DNA from: an endosymbiont of unidentified scaly snail isolate Monju
GTDB lineage: Bacteria; Pseudomonadota; Gammaproteobacteria; Chromatiales; Chromatiaceae
Length of the DNA: 64,000 bases
Assembly: GCF_000801295.1 (NCBI RefSeq)
Contig: NZ_AP012978.1
Coordinates: 2,401,001-2,465,000 of the forward strand
Direction of reading: 5' to 3'
The notes beneath the pieces are model-generated. The model saw only the letters and a list, made by a program, of their open reading frames with translations, was not told where the DNA came from and made no database searches. Below are positions 2,811 through 55,137 of this stretch, piece after piece. The number at the start of each line of letters is the position of its first letter. The first letter of the stretch is position 1. The position numbers and the translations under genes were made by a program.

Positions 2811-4237
<1,427 letters not shown>

Positions 4238-4245
<8 letters not shown>

Positions 4246-5719
4246 TGATTGCAGCCTGGTCATCTTCGGCGCCACCGGCAATCTGGCGCAGCGCAAGCTG
4301 TTCCCGGCGCTCTACCACCTGGACGCCTCGGGACTGCTGCCGGCCGGTCTGAAGATCCTGGGCAACGGACGCAGCGAACACAGCCGCGAGAGCTGGCAGC
4401 AACATGTGCGCGGCGCCCTCGAGGCGCACGCACGGGACCCGCTGGTCCCCGAGACCTGGCAACGTTTTGCATCGCGGCTGTACTACCTGCGCGGCGACCT
4501 TTCCGCGCCCGACACCTACCACCAGCTGGGGCAGACACTGCACGGCAGCGACTGGCCGGACAACCGGGTGTTCTACGTGGCCCTGCCACCGGCGCGCTAT
4601 GGCAGCATCATCGAATCACTGGGCGAGGCCGAGCTGCTGAACGAGAACGACGGGCACTGGCGCCGGGTGGTGATCGAAAAGCCCTTCGGGGCCGACCTGG
4701 AGAGCGCGCGCAGCCTGCAAAGCAAGCTCTCGCGCTACCTGAACGAGCACCAGACCTACCGCATCGACCACTACATGGGCAAGGCGATGGTGCAGAACAT
4801 CCTGGTCTCCCGTTTCGCCAACCTGCTGTTCGAGCCCCTGTGGAACCGCACCCACATCGAGCAGGTGCAGATCACCCGTACCGAGACCCTGGGCGTGGGC
4901 TCACGCGCCAGTTTCTACGAGCACACCGGGGCGCTGCGCGACATGCTGCAGAGCCACCTGATGCAACTGATGTCGCTGATCGCCATGGAACCGCCGGTAT
5001 CCATGCACAGCGACGACCTGCGCGACGAAAAAGTGAAGGTGCTGAAATCCATTCGCCCCATCCATCCCTCGGCGGTCAACGCGTGCGCCTTCCGCGCCCA
5101 GTACACCACCGGCCGCAACGGCGGCGAGACCGTGCCTGGCTACCTGGAAGAGCCGGGCGTCGACCCCCACAGCGTCACCGAGACCTATGCCGCGCTCAAG
5201 CTCTACGTGGACAACTGGCGCTGGCGCGACGTGCCCTTCTACCTGCGCACCGGCAAGCGCATGGCCGAAGCGCTGTCCACCATCGCCATCAGCTTCCGCC
5301 AGCCACCCAAGCACTTCTTTCGCAGGGCGCACATCGAGCGCCCGCCGCCCAACTGGATGATCATGAGCATGTCGCCCGAGGAGTCACTGCGCATCGAGAT
5401 CACGGTCAAGCGGCCAGGCATGACCATGTCCACCCGACAAATCAGCCTGGATGCTCCCTTCCGCTGCGAATACCATGCCCAGACCGGCGCCTACGAGGGC
5501 CTGCTGCTCGACGTGCTCGAGGGCGACAACTCGCTGTTCCTGCGCTACGACGAGGTGGAATGGGCCTGGCGGGTGGTCGATCCGGTGCTGCATGCCTGGG
5601 CCACCGAGCGCGACTACATCGCCAGCTACCCCGCAGGCAACTGGGAACCGGCCGAGGTGGGGCGTATCTTCGACCGACCGCATCACCACTGGCGCAATCA
5701 TCTGGATCCCGAGTCATGA
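4238..5719 (+). CDS. zwf: Glucose-6-phosphate 1-dehydrogenase
   Basis: A 493-residue G6PDH. The nucleotide-binding fingerprint is GATGNLAQRKL at the N-terminus, EKPFG follows, and the active site is RIDHYMGK with the catalytic His. The reading frame is open further upstream, but ATG 4238 fits the family N-terminus (MSDDCSLVIFG) and overlaps the gnd stop. It oxidises glucose 6-phosphate to 6-phosphogluconolactone, feeding pgl next door. Its 3' end overlaps pgl by 4 bp (ATGA). Confidence 0.95.
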
Positions 5720-6384
5720 CCACCTGGATCGGCTGCGAGGACGCGGACGCCCTGGCCACCGAGGCAGCGCGCCTGATCCGTGCCGCGGCGGCCGAAGCGA
5801 TCGCCCGCCATGGGCACTTCCGGCTGGTACTGGCAGGCGGCACTACCCCGCTGGCCACCTATCGGCTGCTCACCGAACAACCCGAGGGGCTGGCCGACTG
5901 GCACCTGTACTACGGCGACGAGCGCTGCCTGCCGGCGGACGATCCACAACGCAACGCCAGCCTGGTCGCAGAGACCGGCCTGCCGACACACGCCAGTCGC
6001 CACCATCCCATTCCCGCCGAGGCCTGCCCCGAGGGCGCGGCTGTGCGTTACACCGCCACCATCACCCCTGCCCTGCCCTTCGACCTGGTGTTGCTGGGCA
6101 TGGGCGAGGACGGCCACACTGCCAGCCTGTTCCCCGGTCACCATTGGCCCGACCAGCCGGTGATCCCGGTCGAGAACGCCCCCAAGCCACCGTCACGACG
6201 GGTCAGCCTGGGCCCCACCAGCCTGCGCGCCTGCCGGCAGATGCTGGTGCTGGTCAGCGGCGAGGGCAAGGAAGAGGCGCTACGCGCCTGGCGCGCCGGT
6301 GAAGACCTGCCGGTGACACGCGTCGCCGACCTGCCGCAGGCGCGGGTGCTGGTCGAGCGCAACCTGCTGGAGACCGCGCCATGA
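5716..6384 (+). CDS. pgl: 6-phosphogluconolactonase
   Basis: A 222-residue protein of the DevB/Pgl family, related to glucosamine-6-phosphate isomerase. Key stretches are LVLAGGTTP, YYGDERCLP with the phosphate-contacting region, and LLGMGEDGHTASLFPG containing the catalytic His. ATG 5716 overlaps the zwf stop and is the family start. It hydrolyses 6-phosphogluconolactone to 6-phosphogluconate, linking zwf to gnd. It overlaps glk by 4 bp. Confidence 0.94.
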   Translation: MTTWIGCEDADALATEAARLIRAAAAEAIARHGHFRLVLAGGTTPLATYRLLTEQPEGLADWHLYYGDERCLPADDPQRNASLVAETGLPTHASRHHPIPAEACPEGAAVRYTATITPALPFDLVLLGMGEDGHTASLFPGHHWPDQPVIPVENAPKPPSRRVSLGPTSLRACRQMLVLVSGEGKEEALRAWRAGEDLPVTRVADLPQARVLVERNLLETAP

Positions 6385-7316
6385 GCCGACTGGCCGCCGA
6401 TGTCGGAGGCACCTGGACCCGTCTGGCGCTGCTCGACGGCGGGGAGACCCGTACCCGGCACTATCGCAATGCCGGCTTTTCCGACCTCTATCAGATCATC
6501 GAACGTTTCCTGCTCGACGAACAGGTGGCAGCGACCACCATCAAGTACATGGTACTGGCCCTGCCGGGCCCGGTGGGCGAGGCGCCGATGCACCTCACCA
6601 ACCTCGGCTGGGTAGTGAAGCACGAGGGCCTGCACGCCTGCTGCCCACGGGCGCACATCCGCCTGCTCAACGACTTCCAGGGCGCCGCGGTGGGGGCACT
6701 GCACGCCAGTGAGGGACGCTGGCTCAACCCACATGCCGCGGCACCGGCAAGCCGGGGCCCGGCGGTGGTCACCGGCCCCGGGACCGGCCTGGGCCTGGCC
6801 TGGTACGCGGACATTACCGAGGCCGCGCTGCCCCGGGCCAGCGAAGGCGGGCATGCCGATTTCGCGCCGGCCGAAGCACGGCAGCGCGCCTTGCACGCCT
6901 GGCTGGCACAGCGCCATGGTCACGTCTCCTGGGAGCGGGTGCTGTCCGGGCCGGGACTGGGCGAACTGCATGCCTTTCTCGCCGCGGCAGAAGACCCTTT
7001 GCCCCCAGAGCAGGTCCAGCAACACGCCGAGACCGGCGATGCGACAAGCCGCGAGGCGATTGCACTGTTCCTGCGCATCCTCGGCAACTGGGTCAGCAAC
7101 CTGGCCCTGCTGTTCCGTCCTGCGGCCGGGATCTGGCTGTGTGGCGGCGTGGTCCAGCACCTGGCACGCTGGTTTGCGGGCGATGCCTTCCTCGAAGGTT
7201 TCCTGGCCCGCGGGCGCATGCAGGCCGTGGCACGCGAGACCCCGGTACGCCTGGTCGAGCAGGCCGATGTCGGTCTCGCGGGGGTCATTCATCTGGCAAG
7301 AGGTCTGACGCCATGA
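6381..7316 (+). CDS. glk: Glucokinase
   Basis: A 311-residue ROK-unrelated, Glk-family (bacterial type A) glucokinase. ADVGGTWTRLALL is the N-terminal ATP phosphate-binding loop, LLNDFQGAAVG holds the catalytic Asp, and VTGPGTGLGLAW is the second glycine-rich motif. It phosphorylates glucose released from glycogen or maltodextrins, feeding zwf or glycolysis. It overlaps both pgl and glgC by ATGA, so it belongs to the same transcript. Confidence 0.93.
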   Translation: MSRLAADVGGTWTRLALLDGGETRTRHYRNAGFSDLYQIIERFLLDEQVAATTIKYMVLALPGPVGEAPMHLTNLGWVVKHEGLHACCPRAHIRLLNDFQGAAVGALHASEGRWLNPHAAAPASRGPAVVTGPGTGLGLAWYADITEAALPRASEGGHADFAPAEARQRALHAWLAQRHGHVSWERVLSGPGLGELHAFLAAAEDPLPPEQVQQHAETGDATSREAIALFLRILGNWVSNLALLFRPAAGIWLCGGVVQHLARWFAGDAFLEGFLARGRMQAVARETPVRLVEQADVGLAGVIHLARGLTP

Positions 7317-48334: not shown

Positions 48335-49417
48335 ATGAGCCTGGAAAACCGTTACGACTTCGTGCTGCTGTTCGATGTCAAGGAAGGCAATCCCAACGGA
48401 GACCCCGATGCCGGCAACCTCCCGCGCGTGGATGCCGAGACCGGACAGGGGCTGGTGACCGATGTCAGTCTGAAACGCAAGGTGCGCAATTATGTCGGAC
48501 TCGTGAAAGAGGAGCAGCCGCCTTATGAAATTTACGTGAAGGAGAAAGCTGTCCTCAATTTGACGCATGTTCGTGCCTACAAAGGAGTGGAGGCCGAAGA
48601 TCAACTGGAACAAGACAAGAAAGGGCACTGGAAATCCAAGGGGAAAGGAAGCAATGAAGATGCAAAAAAATGGCTCTGTAATAACTTTTATGACATTCGC
48701 ACCTTTGGTGCTGTGATGTCTTTAGGTGTGAACTGCGGCCAGGTTCGGGGCCCAGTGCAGCTCACCTTTGCCCGTTCCATCGATCCGATCTTCAGTCAGG
48801 AGCACTCCATCACCCGCATGGCGGTGGCGACCGAGGCCGAAGCCGAAGCCGAAGCCGAAGCCGAAGCCGAAGCCGAAGCCGAAGCCGAAGCCGAAGCCGA
48901 AGCCGAAGCCGAAGCCGAAGCCGAAGCCGAAGCCGAAGCCGAAGCCGAAGCCGAAGCCGAAGCCGAAGCCGAAGCCGAAGCCGAAGCCGAAGCCGAAGCC
49001 GAAGCCGAAGCCGAAGCCGAAGCCGAAGCCGAAGCCGAAAAACAGGATGGCGACAACCGCACCATGGGCCGCAAGCACACCGTCCCCTATGGCCTCTATC
49101 GCGCTCACGGCTTCGTCTCCGCACCGCTGGCCTGCCAGACCGGCTTCTCGGAAGAAGACCTGAAGCTGCTCTGGGAAGCGCTGTGCAACATGTTCGAACA
49201 CGATCACTCCGCCGCCCGTGGCGAGATGGCCACACGCGGGCTCTATGTGTTCAAGCACAACAGCAAGCTGGGCAACGCCCATGCCCACGATCTGTTCGAC
49301 CGGATACAGGTGGGGCGCAAGGAAGACGTGGCCGTGCCACACCAGTTCTCTGACTACGTAGTATCCATCGATGACAGCAACCTGCCCGAAGGCGTGGAGT
49401 TGATTCAAATGTCTTGA
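48335..49417 (+). CDS. cas7: Type I-C Cas7 (Csd2) with (Ala-Glu)34 expansion
   Basis: A 360-residue Cas7: N-terminal [20 protein letters not shown], then [31 protein letters not shown], and after the repeat [21 protein letters not shown]. Ordinary I-C Cas7 has a short ATEAEAEK-type segment here; in this gene it is expanded to Glu plus 34 Ala-Glu pairs, about 69 residues. The frame is kept. Without the expansion it is of normal length, about 290 residues. Cas7 forms the Cascade backbone that coats the crRNA. ATG 48335 overlaps the Cas8c stop. Confidence 0.92.
48836..49039 (+). repeat. Hexanucleotide microsatellite (GCCGAA)34 in cas7
   Basis: Thirty-four perfect tandem copies of GCCGAA, 204 bp, with no interruption. 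Each copy encodes Ala-Glu in the cas7 frame. Because the unit is 6 bp, copy-number change never breaks the frame. Complete homogeneity suggests recent or continuing slippage. Confidence 0.97.
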
Positions 49418-51619: not shown

Positions 51620-51718
51620 GTCGCCCCCATCACGGGGGCGTGGATTGAAACTTCAGGTTTGCTCCAAGTCGATGCCGAGGTCGGCGGTCGCCCCCATCAC
51701 GGGGGCGTGGATTGAAAC
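51620..51718 (+). CRISPR. Minimal type I-C CRISPR array, two repeats and one spacer
   Basis: Two identical 32-bp repeats (51620-51651 and 51687-51718), beginning GTCGCCCCCATC and ending GTGGATTGAAAC, with an inner CGCCCCC/GGGGGCG hairpin, typical of type I-C. One 35-bp spacer lies at 51652-51686. After the second repeat comes non-repeat sequence. No third repeat follows, so the array has been lost or never grew. The spacer does not match anything I could see in this window. Confidence 0.95.
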
Positions 51719-51895
51719 CCGCCAATCGACGACGGCAGCGCCAACCTGCCAATGTCAGGCCCAGCCAAACACTTTCTGATATGGCACTGCCAGATCGCAC
51801 CTCATCCCCGACAGATCCAGCTGCAATCATTCCCTCCCTCGGCCGGTCATATTTTGACCAGCAACAAGGAAGGCCACACACAGAGGAGAGGTTTC

Positions 51896-52165
51896 ATGAA
51901 GCTATCCACAACTTCGGCCGGCATGGTCCTGGCCGTGGCGGCAGCCGGCATGCTCGGCGGGTGCTCGGAATACGGCACCCGCTACAGCAGCATGGCCGCC
52001 ACCGAGCAAACGGTTCACTGTTACGGGGTGAACAAGTGCAAGGGCTACAACGATTGCAAGACGGCCAGCAATGCCTGCAAGGGCAAGGCCTCATGCAAGG
52101 GGCAGGGCTTCGTGAACATGTCGGAGAAGGCCTGCACCGAGGTGGGCGGAACCGTCGGTTCCTGA
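51896..52165 (+). CDS. bufA: Bufferin-type RiPP precursor, lipoprotein form
   Basis: An 89-residue BufA2-like (DUF2282-related) precursor with six Cys in the core: HCYGVNKCKG, NDCKTASNACKG, KASCKGQGF and MSEKACTEVGG. Bufferins are ribosomal peptides modified by an MNIO enzyme to bind metals such as copper in the periplasm. The signal ends in a lipobox-like MLGGCSEYG, so this copy is predicted to be lipid-anchored, probably in the outer membrane (Ser at +2). GAGGAGAGG precedes the start. The second precursor follows 29 bp later. Confidence 0.88.
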   Translation: MKLSTTSAGMVLAVAAAGMLGGCSEYGTRYSSMAATEQTVHCYGVNKCKGYNDCKTASNACKGKASCKGQGFVNMSEKACTEVGGTVGS

Positions 52166-52194
52166 GCCCGATTCCATACAAAGGAGGATACGCA

Positions 52195-52461
52195 ATGAAG
52201 ATATCGAAGAGGACGGCCGGTATCGGGCTCGGCGCCGCGCTGGCGATGGCGGCCGCCGGAATGACAGGCGTTGCCAGCACGGCAATGGCCTCGAGCAGCG
52301 GCAAGGTGCACTGCTATGGCGTCAACAAGTGCAAGGGATACAACGACTGCAAGAGTGCCAGCAATGCCTGCAAGGGCAAGGTCTCCTGCCAGGGCCAGGG
52401 TTTCGTGCTCATGTCGAAACATGCCTGCGATGCCATCGGGGGCAAGGCCAAGAAGGAGTAA
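52195..52461 (+). CDS. bufA: Bufferin-type RiPP precursor, soluble form
   Basis: An 88-residue paralogue of the preceding gene, with an ordinary Sec signal (ending ASTAMA) and the same six-Cys core: HCYGVNKCKG, NDCKSASNACKG, KVSCQGQGF and SKHACDAIGG. An ideal AAAGGAGG lies 7 bp upstream, suggesting high expression. It should be exported and free in the periplasm. Confidence 0.9.
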   Translation: MKISKRTAGIGLGAALAMAAAGMTGVASTAMASSSGKVHCYGVNKCKGYNDCKSASNACKGKVSCQGQGFVLMSKHACDAIGGKAKKE

Positions 52462-52512
52462 TCCACCCGGCCACCGTTCCTGCGGGATGGTGGCCTTTCG
52501 GGAGAACACGCC

Positions 52513-53379
52513 ATGTCCCGCCCCTTTCTCGGCTTCGGCCTGGGCCTGCGCACTGACCATTACGCCTATATTGAAGAACACCGGCCAGATGTCGACTGGT
52601 TCGAGATCCTGTCCGAGAACTACATGGTGCCTGGCGGCAAGCCACTGGCCCACCTCGACCGGATTCGTGCCGACTACCCGATGGTCATGCACGGTGTCTC
52701 GCTGTCGATCGGCAGCACCGACCCACTCGATCTCGACTACCTCGCCCAGCTGAAGACGCTGGCCAAACGCGTGGAACCGCACTGGATCTCCGACCACCTG
52801 TGCTGGACCCGTGTCGATCACACCAACAGTCACGACCTGTTGCCGCTGCCCTACAACGAGACGGCCATTGCGCACATCGCCGAGCGCATCCGACAGGTGC
52901 AGGACTACCTGGGCCGGCAGATCCTCATCGAGAACCTGTCGAGCTATGTCACCTATCACGCTTCGGAAATGCCCGAGTGGGAATTCCTCGACGAGATCGC
53001 ACGCCGTGCCGACTGCCTTGTCCTGCTCGACATCAACAACATCTACGTCAGCGCGCACAACCACCATTTCGACCCGGTGGACTATCTCGACGGCATGAGC
53101 CCTGAACGGGTGATGCAGTTTCACCTGGCCGGTCACTGCCATGATGGCCTCATGATCATCGACACTCACGACCACCCGGTCTGCGACCCGGTGTGGACCC
53201 TGTATGCAGACGCCCTGCGACGCTTCGGCGCAGTCAGCACCATGATCGAGCGCGACGACGACATCCCCGCCTTTCCCGAACTGCGCGCCGAACTGGCGAT
53301 CGCCGAACGCATTGCCGGCGAGACCCTGCCTGTGCCTGCGTTGCAGACATCGCAAACGGCGCTGCGAGGCCTCGCCTGA
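52513..53379 (+). CDS. bufB: MNIO (DUF692) bufferin maturation enzyme
   Basis: A 288-residue MNIO enzyme. Conserved segments with iron-binding residues: MHGVSLSIGS, WISDHLCW, IENLSSYV, LLDINNIYV and FHLAGHC. Family members use two or three irons to oxidise Cys residues of a peptide, for example to thiooxazole-type groups. It directly follows the precursors and overlaps the partner gene by one base. Confidence 0.93.
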   Translation: MSRPFLGFGLGLRTDHYAYIEEHRPDVDWFEILSENYMVPGGKPLAHLDRIRADYPMVMHGVSLSIGSTDPLDLDYLAQLKTLAKRVEPHWISDHLCWTRVDHTNSHDLLPLPYNETAIAHIAERIRQVQDYLGRQILIENLSSYVTYHASEMPEWEFLDEIARRADCLVLLDINNIYVSAHNHHFDPVDYLDGMSPERVMQFHLAGHCHDGLMIIDTHDHPVCDPVWTLYADALRRFGAVSTMIERDDDIPAFPELRAELAIAERIAGETLPVPALQTSQTALRGLA

Positions 53380-54170
53380 TGGACGGCCTGCGCGACCTGC
53401 AACAGGCCTTTCTGGGGCACCTGCTGGGCGAAGGCAGCCCCATCGCCGGGGCCATCGAATCCACTGCCGGCGCCTCGGCCGCCGAACGGCTCGGCATCTA
53501 TGCCACCGGCTATCGCCTGCGCCTGAAAGAGGCTATGGAGACGGACTATCCCCGCCTGCATGCCTACCTCGGTGACACCCTCTTCGATCGCCTCGCCGAC
53601 ACCTACATCCACCGCTATCGTTCGCACGGCACCAGTCTGCGTGGCTACAGCCGCCACATGGGAGAGCTGCTGGACGAACTGCCGCCGTTCAGCGGCCTGC
53701 CGGTGCTTGGCGAGATCGAGCGCATCGAGCGCGCCTTCAACCACAGCTTCGACGCCGCCGACCGCCCGCTGCCCGGCCCCGCTCTGCTTGAACGGATTCC
53801 TCCCGCAGCCTGGCCCGACATGCGTCCGGTCCTGCACCCCTCGGTCACCCTGCTGCCGCTGCGCTACAACAGCTTTGCCATCTGGCGGGCGCTGGCGGAC
53901 GAGACCCAGCCCCCCGAGCCGACCGAGGCTCCCGCCATCTGGCTGATATGGCGCCGCGACCTGGTCAGCCGTTACCGGGCCCTGCCGGCACACGAGGCCG
54001 AGGCGCTGAACGCCATCCGCAACGGCGAGCCCTTCGGCGCCGTGTGCGAGCACCTGCTCCAACACTTTGCTCCCGAGGCGGTTCCCCGGGAGGCGGTCCA
54101 GCTGTTGCAGTCCTGGCTCATCGAGCAGGTCATCGCCACGCTTGACTGGGAGGCCACACCACCCAGCTGA
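53379..54170 (+). CDS. bufC: DUF2063 partner protein of the MNIO enzyme
   Basis: A 263-residue protein of the DUF2063 family. The N-terminal DUF2063 domain has LRDLQQAFLGHLLG and GIYATGYRLRLKEAMETDYP; the C-terminal region has the LLQHFAPEAVP and LLQSWLIEQ segments. Such partners contain a domain that recruits the precursor peptide to the MNIO enzyme. ATG 53379 overlaps the bufB stop. Confidence 0.9.
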   Translation: MDGLRDLQQAFLGHLLGEGSPIAGAIESTAGASAAERLGIYATGYRLRLKEAMETDYPRLHAYLGDTLFDRLADTYIHRYRSHGTSLRGYSRHMGELLDELPPFSGLPVLGEIERIERAFNHSFDAADRPLPGPALLERIPPAAWPDMRPVLHPSVTLLPLRYNSFAIWRALADETQPPEPTEAPAIWLIWRRDLVSRYRALPAHEAEALNAIRNGEPFGAVCEHLLQHFAPEAVPREAVQLLQSWLIEQVIATLDWEATPPS

Positions 54171-54204: not shown

Positions 54205-55137
54205 ATGGCAGGCTCCAGCACCAAGGTTATCCTCGCCGCGCTGGCGGGCAACACCGCCATCGCCATCACCAAGTTCGCCGCCGCGGTCTTTACCGGCAGT
54301 TCGGCCATGCTCTCCGAGGGCATCCACTCGCTGGTGGATACCGGCAACCAGGGACTGCTGCTCTACGGCATGCGCCGCGCCAAGCGTCCGCCAGACGCCC
54401 GCTTTCCCTTCGGACACGGCAAGGAGATCTACTTCTGGAGCTTCGTGGTGGCCATCCTCATCTTCGCGGTCGGCGCCGGAGTATCCATCTACGAAGGCAT
54501 CCACAACATGCTCGACCCCCGGCCGATCACCAATCCGCTGGTCAACTACATCGTGCTCGGGCTGTCCCTCGTCTTCGAGGGCGGGGCCTGGTGGTTCGCG
54601 CTGCGCGAGTTCGGCAAGACCAAGGGAAAGATGGGCTATATCGAAGCCGTGCAACGCGGCAAGGACCCGTCGATGTTCGTGGTGCTGTTCGAAGACTCGG
54701 CCGCCCTGTTGGGGCTGCTGGTGGCAATGGCCGGCATCGCCACCGCACAGTTCACTGGCATCCTCTGGTTCGACGGCCTGGCCTCAGTGGTCATCGGCCT
54801 GATCCTGGGCGCCACCGCCATCTGGCTGGCGATCGAGACCAAGGGCCTGCTGATCGGCGAGAGCGCCAACCGCGAGGTGGTCGCCGGTATCCGCGAGCTG
54901 GTCTCGGCCGAGCCGGCGATCGAAGCCATCAAGGAACTGCTGACCATGCACATGGGACCGGATTTCGTGCTGGTGACCATGGCGGCCGACTTCCGCGACG
55001 ATCTGGATGCCGGCACCATCGAGCACACCATCGCGCGCCTCGACCGCGCCATCAAGGCACGCTGGCCCGAGGTGAAGAAGGTGTTCATCGAGGCCGAGTC
55101 CCTTGTCCCGCGCGTCGAGCACCCCGCCCCCGCATGA
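54205..55137 (+). CDS. Cation diffusion facilitator family transporter
   Basis: A 310-residue CDF transporter with six predicted membrane segments. The metal-site motifs are [13 protein letters not shown] (second helix) and [11 protein letters not shown] (fifth helix). FPFGHGKE is typical. A cytosolic C-terminal domain follows from about residue 215. CDF proteins export Zn2+, Mn2+ or similar ions by proton antiport. Its metal cannot be told from sequence. It lies 34 bp after the bufferin cluster and overlaps rlmH, so it may be part of the metal function. Confidence 0.9.

Follow-up and report, generated by a model that had tools for sequence, protein, structure and literature searches.

Bufferins form a large new class of metal-binding peptides, and those of the Buf2 type are the closest described relatives of the locus analysed here. 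According to the main text passages of Antoine et al. (2025, PMC12452194), lipoprotein signals are predicted for approximately 16% of Buf2 bufferins, which might be membrane-anchored; tandem precursor genes occur in Buf2, and preliminary results place the signal peptide within the recognition sequence of Buf1. In the corresponding passages of Chen et al. (2025, PMC12636315), a subset of bufferins is named among the RiPP-lipoprotein hybrids (DAG-RiPPs); DybA and NedA are lipidated in E. coli, NedA being both triacylated and modified, copper sequestration at the membrane is suggested for NedA, release on vesicles is suggested for lipidated MNIO peptides, and the +2 sorting rule is alluded to. 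Since both papers report it, the central idea of an anchored bufferin is already in print as a prediction, and the premise of the initial annotation of our locus, that bufferins are known as soluble peptides, has been out of date since these lipoprotein-type Buf2 precursors and lipidated MNIO peptides were published in 2025.

The window, by which we mean the whole stretch of 64,000 nucleotides that was analysed, belongs to a genome of 2.6 Mb in a single contig. At positions 51896-54170 it contains two paralogous six-cysteine precursors, an MNIO enzyme and a DUF2063 partner, as had been annotated initially; coordinates, translations and family matches all agree on this content. The features of the locus are these:

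51823..51848, + strand: conserved element GCAATnWTTnC-N9-CCGGTC, candidate promoter of the pair (aligned upstream regions of five genus members)
51896..52165, + strand: bufA2-L, precursor with a lipoprotein-type signal, 89 aa (translation; NF050166, 88.3 bits; lipobox conserved in 5/5 in the genus)
52195..52461, + strand: bufA2-S, paralogous precursor with an ordinary Sec-type signal (AMA-S) and a six-Cys core, 88 aa (translation; NF050166, 80.6 bits)
52513..53379, + strand: bufB, MNIO maturase (NF050167, 391.2 bits; PF05114, 372.9 bits)
53379..54170, + strand: bufC, DUF2063-domain partner (PF09836, 66.6 bits, cut-off 27.2)
54205..55137, + strand: CDF cation efflux transporter, 34 bases after bufC (TIGR01297, 151.5 bits)

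All four genes of the cluster lie on one strand, with gaps of 29 and 51 bases, and the bufB stop overlaps the bufC start by one base. Both precursors score above the cut-off of NCBIfam BufA2 (60 bits) and the MNIO enzyme downstream of them above that of BufB (310 bits), while neither precursor matched a Pfam family in the profile search; the C-terminal RRE-type part of bufC gave weak matches only (PF22106, E 0.16; NF050145, HvfC, 30.4 bits against a cut-off of 142). Each precursor has six core cysteines, all invariant in a 13-row alignment of relatives; bufA2-L adds a seventh, Cys23, and bufA2-S has no cysteine before the core. We consider it rather probable that this is a Buf2-type operon in which one BufB/BufC pair serves two metal buffers, one anchored and one free in the periplasm.

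Lipoboxes were called throughout the survey by pattern and by eye, not by SignalP, with a pattern scan that follows a PROSITE-like rule. The lipobox of bufA2-L, MLGGC-SEYG (residues 19-23), ends the hydrophobic stretch, has Lys2 near the start and Ser as the +2 residue, and is joined to the six-Cys core by an 18-residue tether. Conservation was assessed in a set of eight genomes of the genus, the window's own included, of which five have the tandem pair, one has a single soluble BufA2 and two have no BufA2. In the five pairs the lipobox cysteine is present in every first precursor (LGGC in three, LAGC in two) and in none of the second, which argues that the pattern is more than chance; the initial annotation had predicted an anchored precursor beside a free one, and the same split recurs in all five pairs, with the lipobox cysteine conserved in these close homologues. 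L-x-G-C is invariant across the five first precursors, while the 18-residue linker has otherwise diverged, keeping only Ala34 and the TVH adjoining the core. Pairwise dN/dS (ten comparisons for each gene) is 0.17-0.32 for the first precursor gene and 0.07-0.25 for the second, and both genes are hence maintained under purifying selection. The hydrophobic stretches stay similar between first and second precursors in the alignment of relatives, which fits one shared maturase.

These data bear on two alternatives. It is very improbable that Cys23 is not lipidated and that signal peptidase I cuts further on, for instance after Ala34 (SMA-A), so that both products are soluble. The invariance of Ala34 in the five first precursors, where it falls close to the AMA-S site of the second in the alignment, would suit such a cut; however, this site, the only signal-peptidase-I-like one seen, is separated from the hydrophobic stretch by approximately 12 residues and has no conserved residue at -3 (Ser, Ser, Tyr, Asn and Asp across the five first precursors), whereas L-x-G-C never varies among them and 56 unique lipobox BufA2 precursors occur among the matches listed. 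A second alternative, which we regard as unlikely, is that duplication only raises the amount of bufferin, the anchoring of one copy being a side effect that drift has left in place, with no separate role. Retention of the lipobox in all five pairs despite the divergence of the linker speaks against this, and we return to it with the wider survey.

The destination of an anchored product may be read from the residue that follows the lipobox cysteine. By the E. coli +2 rule, which is less certain in other bacteria, the +2 residues of lipobox precursors favour the outer membrane, because Asp follows the cysteine in only one of the 56 unique lipobox precursors among the matches listed, and Ala, Ser and Thr together account for 40. 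From this cysteine to the core these 56 have 13-27 residues, with a median of 18.

The candidate promoter element lies 72-79 bases before the first start codon in the five genus pairs, and we take it to resemble the promoter of an alternative sigma factor. Each of the five pair genomes has the exact pattern once at its pair, and G005 has one extra occurrence; since the pattern was defined from these same sites, its rarity elsewhere is the sole evidence, there being no occurrence in the three genomes of the genus that lack the pair and none of the reversed-pattern control in all eight. Outside the genus it was absent from the 14 other mixed clusters checked, and a sigma-70 scan found nothing. 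A regulator of the NrsF type, as in Buf1 clusters, was considered and rejected: none exceeded the cut-off in the eight genus genomes, with one sub-threshold match in G004.

Downstream, the CDF gene adjoins bufferin in G000, G003 and G006, and a fragment of it lies approximately 1.7 kb off in G004. In G005 and G001 it is located near rlmH, maf and rng with no bufferin beside it, and for this reason was set aside as a part of the system; it is probably a positional neighbour, possibly co-transcribed with the cluster. In G007, a 1.9-Mb genome of the genus, fragments of bufB and bufC lie upstream of the CDF gene at the same site (L258, ~6338-6805), representing a decayed bufferin cluster. Directly before the bufferin cluster of the window, two CRISPR-like repeat copies were seen by eye (51620-51718), just upstream of which are type I-C cas7, cas4, cas1 and cas2. 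The cas7 gene (48335-49417; type I-C, TIGR02589, 400.3 bits in two stretches) holds 34.8 copies of CCGAAG at 48831-49039, encoding approximately 70 residues of Glu-Ala repeats, either a real expansion or an assembly effect.

This neighbourhood bears on a third alternative, that outer-membrane vesicles carry metal-loaded lipidated bufferin out of the cell and that the free form serves to collect periplasmic metal. The vesicle release proposed for lipidated MNIO peptides (PMC12636315) and +2 residues favouring outer-membrane sorting are consistent with such shedding, but the genes adjoining the pair give no pointer to vesicles or shedding and the CDF neighbour occurs away from bufferin too, and we think this export improbable.

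The frequencies of tandem and single clusters rest on four even draws of genomes, which were scanned for BufA2 at E 1e-10; the stretches around the listed matches were read and their N-termini sorted by lipobox pattern. BufA2 was found in 71 of 370 genomes in the class draw and in 35 of 397 in the phylum draw; a third draw, from the class of G517, gave 16 of 337, and a fourth gave 67 of 369. This fourth draw mostly repeats the class draw, and 5 places were taken from the 4 genomes that were new in it; the phylum draw was split into classes by hand from kinship. A separate named-search set of at least 80 loci was found with an alignment holding the five pairs and is thus biased to such pairs; 17 of 80 of its clusters were duplicates and do not enter the non-duplicate totals. 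Also set aside, as non-Buf2, were three odd clusters, of which one is gammaproteobacterial and two come from outside that class; L061, a soluble Buf2 with a Buf1-like ORF, was excluded from the Buf2 tandems, and seven MerC-like Buf2 fusion clusters were kept apart as type T.

In the even draws, 14 of 93 gammaproteobacterial single-copy clusters have a lipobox, near the published 16%. Random pairing at that frequency gives 0.256 as the expectation for each tandem to be mixed. With MerC-like fusions left out, the observed share among gammaproteobacterial Buf2 tandems is six of seven (p 0.0015, on seven clusters in total), or five of six without the window's genus (p 0.005). This excess is the second point against a duplication that serves dosage only. 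On the other side, the seventh gammaproteobacterial tandem is a soluble triple, and outside the class all six Buf2 tandems, three of them from one genus, are soluble only, as are all 26 single clusters (two odd clusters apart); these soluble duplicates would suit a dosage effect and indicate that duplication needs no anchor. Furthermore, either form seems to suffice. Among the places examined, lipobox BufA2 occurs in 22 of 100 genomes, 12 of which also have a soluble BufA2 and 10 of which show none, so that the mixed pair is not obligatory, and 77 of the 100 are soluble only.

Among the matches listed for the class draw, the phylum draw, the genus set and the named search together, which comprise 190 non-duplicate clusters, a soluble precursor is also present in 19 of 19 non-duplicate tandems with a lipobox precursor, a count that includes the doubtful lipobox LFAC of L152 and takes 13 of its 19 members from the window's genus or the search seeded with such pairs (6 from the even draws, 4 more from the genus, 9 from the biased named search). 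The lipobox precursor comes first in 17 of these 19 listed tandems. At the pair of G299 (L082) the MNIO enzyme was not seen, the contig ending there.

Precursors of other architecture were also encountered. Seven clusters (L110, L118, L120, L122, L125, L130 and L136) encode frames of 239-254 residues in which a multi-span part containing CCLG, which we presume to be MerC and name accordingly, forms the N-terminus and a Buf2 core the C-terminus; in L122 the fusion is in tandem with a short Buf2. Such frames resemble the MerC-Buf2 fusions published in the main text of PMC12452194. Two-domain Buf2 precursors (L133, L161, L166, L119, L252 and L254) occur in Methylophaga- and Cycloclasticus-like genomes as soluble partners to a six-Cys lipobox copy, and are single elsewhere. 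L123 (G340, 4082-5428) is a triple in which one precursor is soluble and two have a lipobox, the final one being a long Cys-rich repeat form.

By parsimony, eight changes are required for the mixed state on the MNIO tree (157 rows, 152 of them labelled). In the core tree (49 columns) most forks lack resolution, and at least two label changes follow from the starred branches. The two copies of L082 join there with starred support of 97 and those of L111 at 86, unstarred, so that some pairs look like local duplications. A single origin of the mixed pairs is neither shown nor excluded by these trees.

Returning to an operon with one maturase and two buffers, we infer its co-transcription, the cysteine modification, lipidation, outer-membrane sorting, copper as the ligand and a division of labour from the named families. 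BufB/BufC would modify the core cysteines of both precursors in the cytoplasm, before their export by Sec. bufA2-L would then receive its lipid on Cys23 and be cleaved by signal peptidase II. With Ser at +2 its destination would be the outer membrane, its metal-binding core hanging on the 18-residue tether, while bufA2-S would be cut by signal peptidase I and be free in the periplasm. The two products would act as buffers at two sites for a thiophilic metal, copper being the most likely, and metal buffering would be split between membrane and periplasm. More tentatively, and with somewhat less than even confidence, we suggest a two-compartment buffer for Gammaproteobacteria at large, with capture or storage at the outer membrane and shuttling in the periplasm, in which local duplication, together with gain or loss of the lipobox, gave rise to mixed pairs several times. 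An anchored and a free precursor at one maturase would represent a natural experiment on the purpose of the lipid anchor, with the soluble twin as its built-in control, and with such a pair the handling of copper in the periplasm would come to include a membrane-fixed pool.

Among published systems, the captophorins (fontiphorin, oxazolin and bufferin 1; Gadgil et al. 2025, PMC12668002) are alike in being metallophores, with thiooxazoles, produced by an MNIO enzyme and a partner; the main text of that paper does not contain the terms 'signal peptide', 'lipo' or 'Buf2'. The likeness to Buf2 as described in the main text of PMC12452194 is close, extending to a six-Cys precursor with a Sec signal, the MNIO enzyme, the DUF2063 partner and the order ABC, whereas a tendency of tandems to combine anchored and free forms, and conservation of the lipobox in pairs, are not stated there. 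Nor did the main text passages of PMC12636315 or our literature searches, supplements aside, yield a statement of that tendency. The DAG-RiPPs DybA and NedA, in the passages describing them (PMC12636315), share with bufA2-L an MNIO-modified precursor with a signal peptidase II lipobox; however, NedA has EGKCG motifs where the window's precursors have the six-Cys Buf2 core, and those systems are single lipidated products with no anchored and free pair in one cluster. Hence, the anchored bufferin itself is mostly anticipated in print, and the new part is the recurrent, genus-conserved mixed pair.
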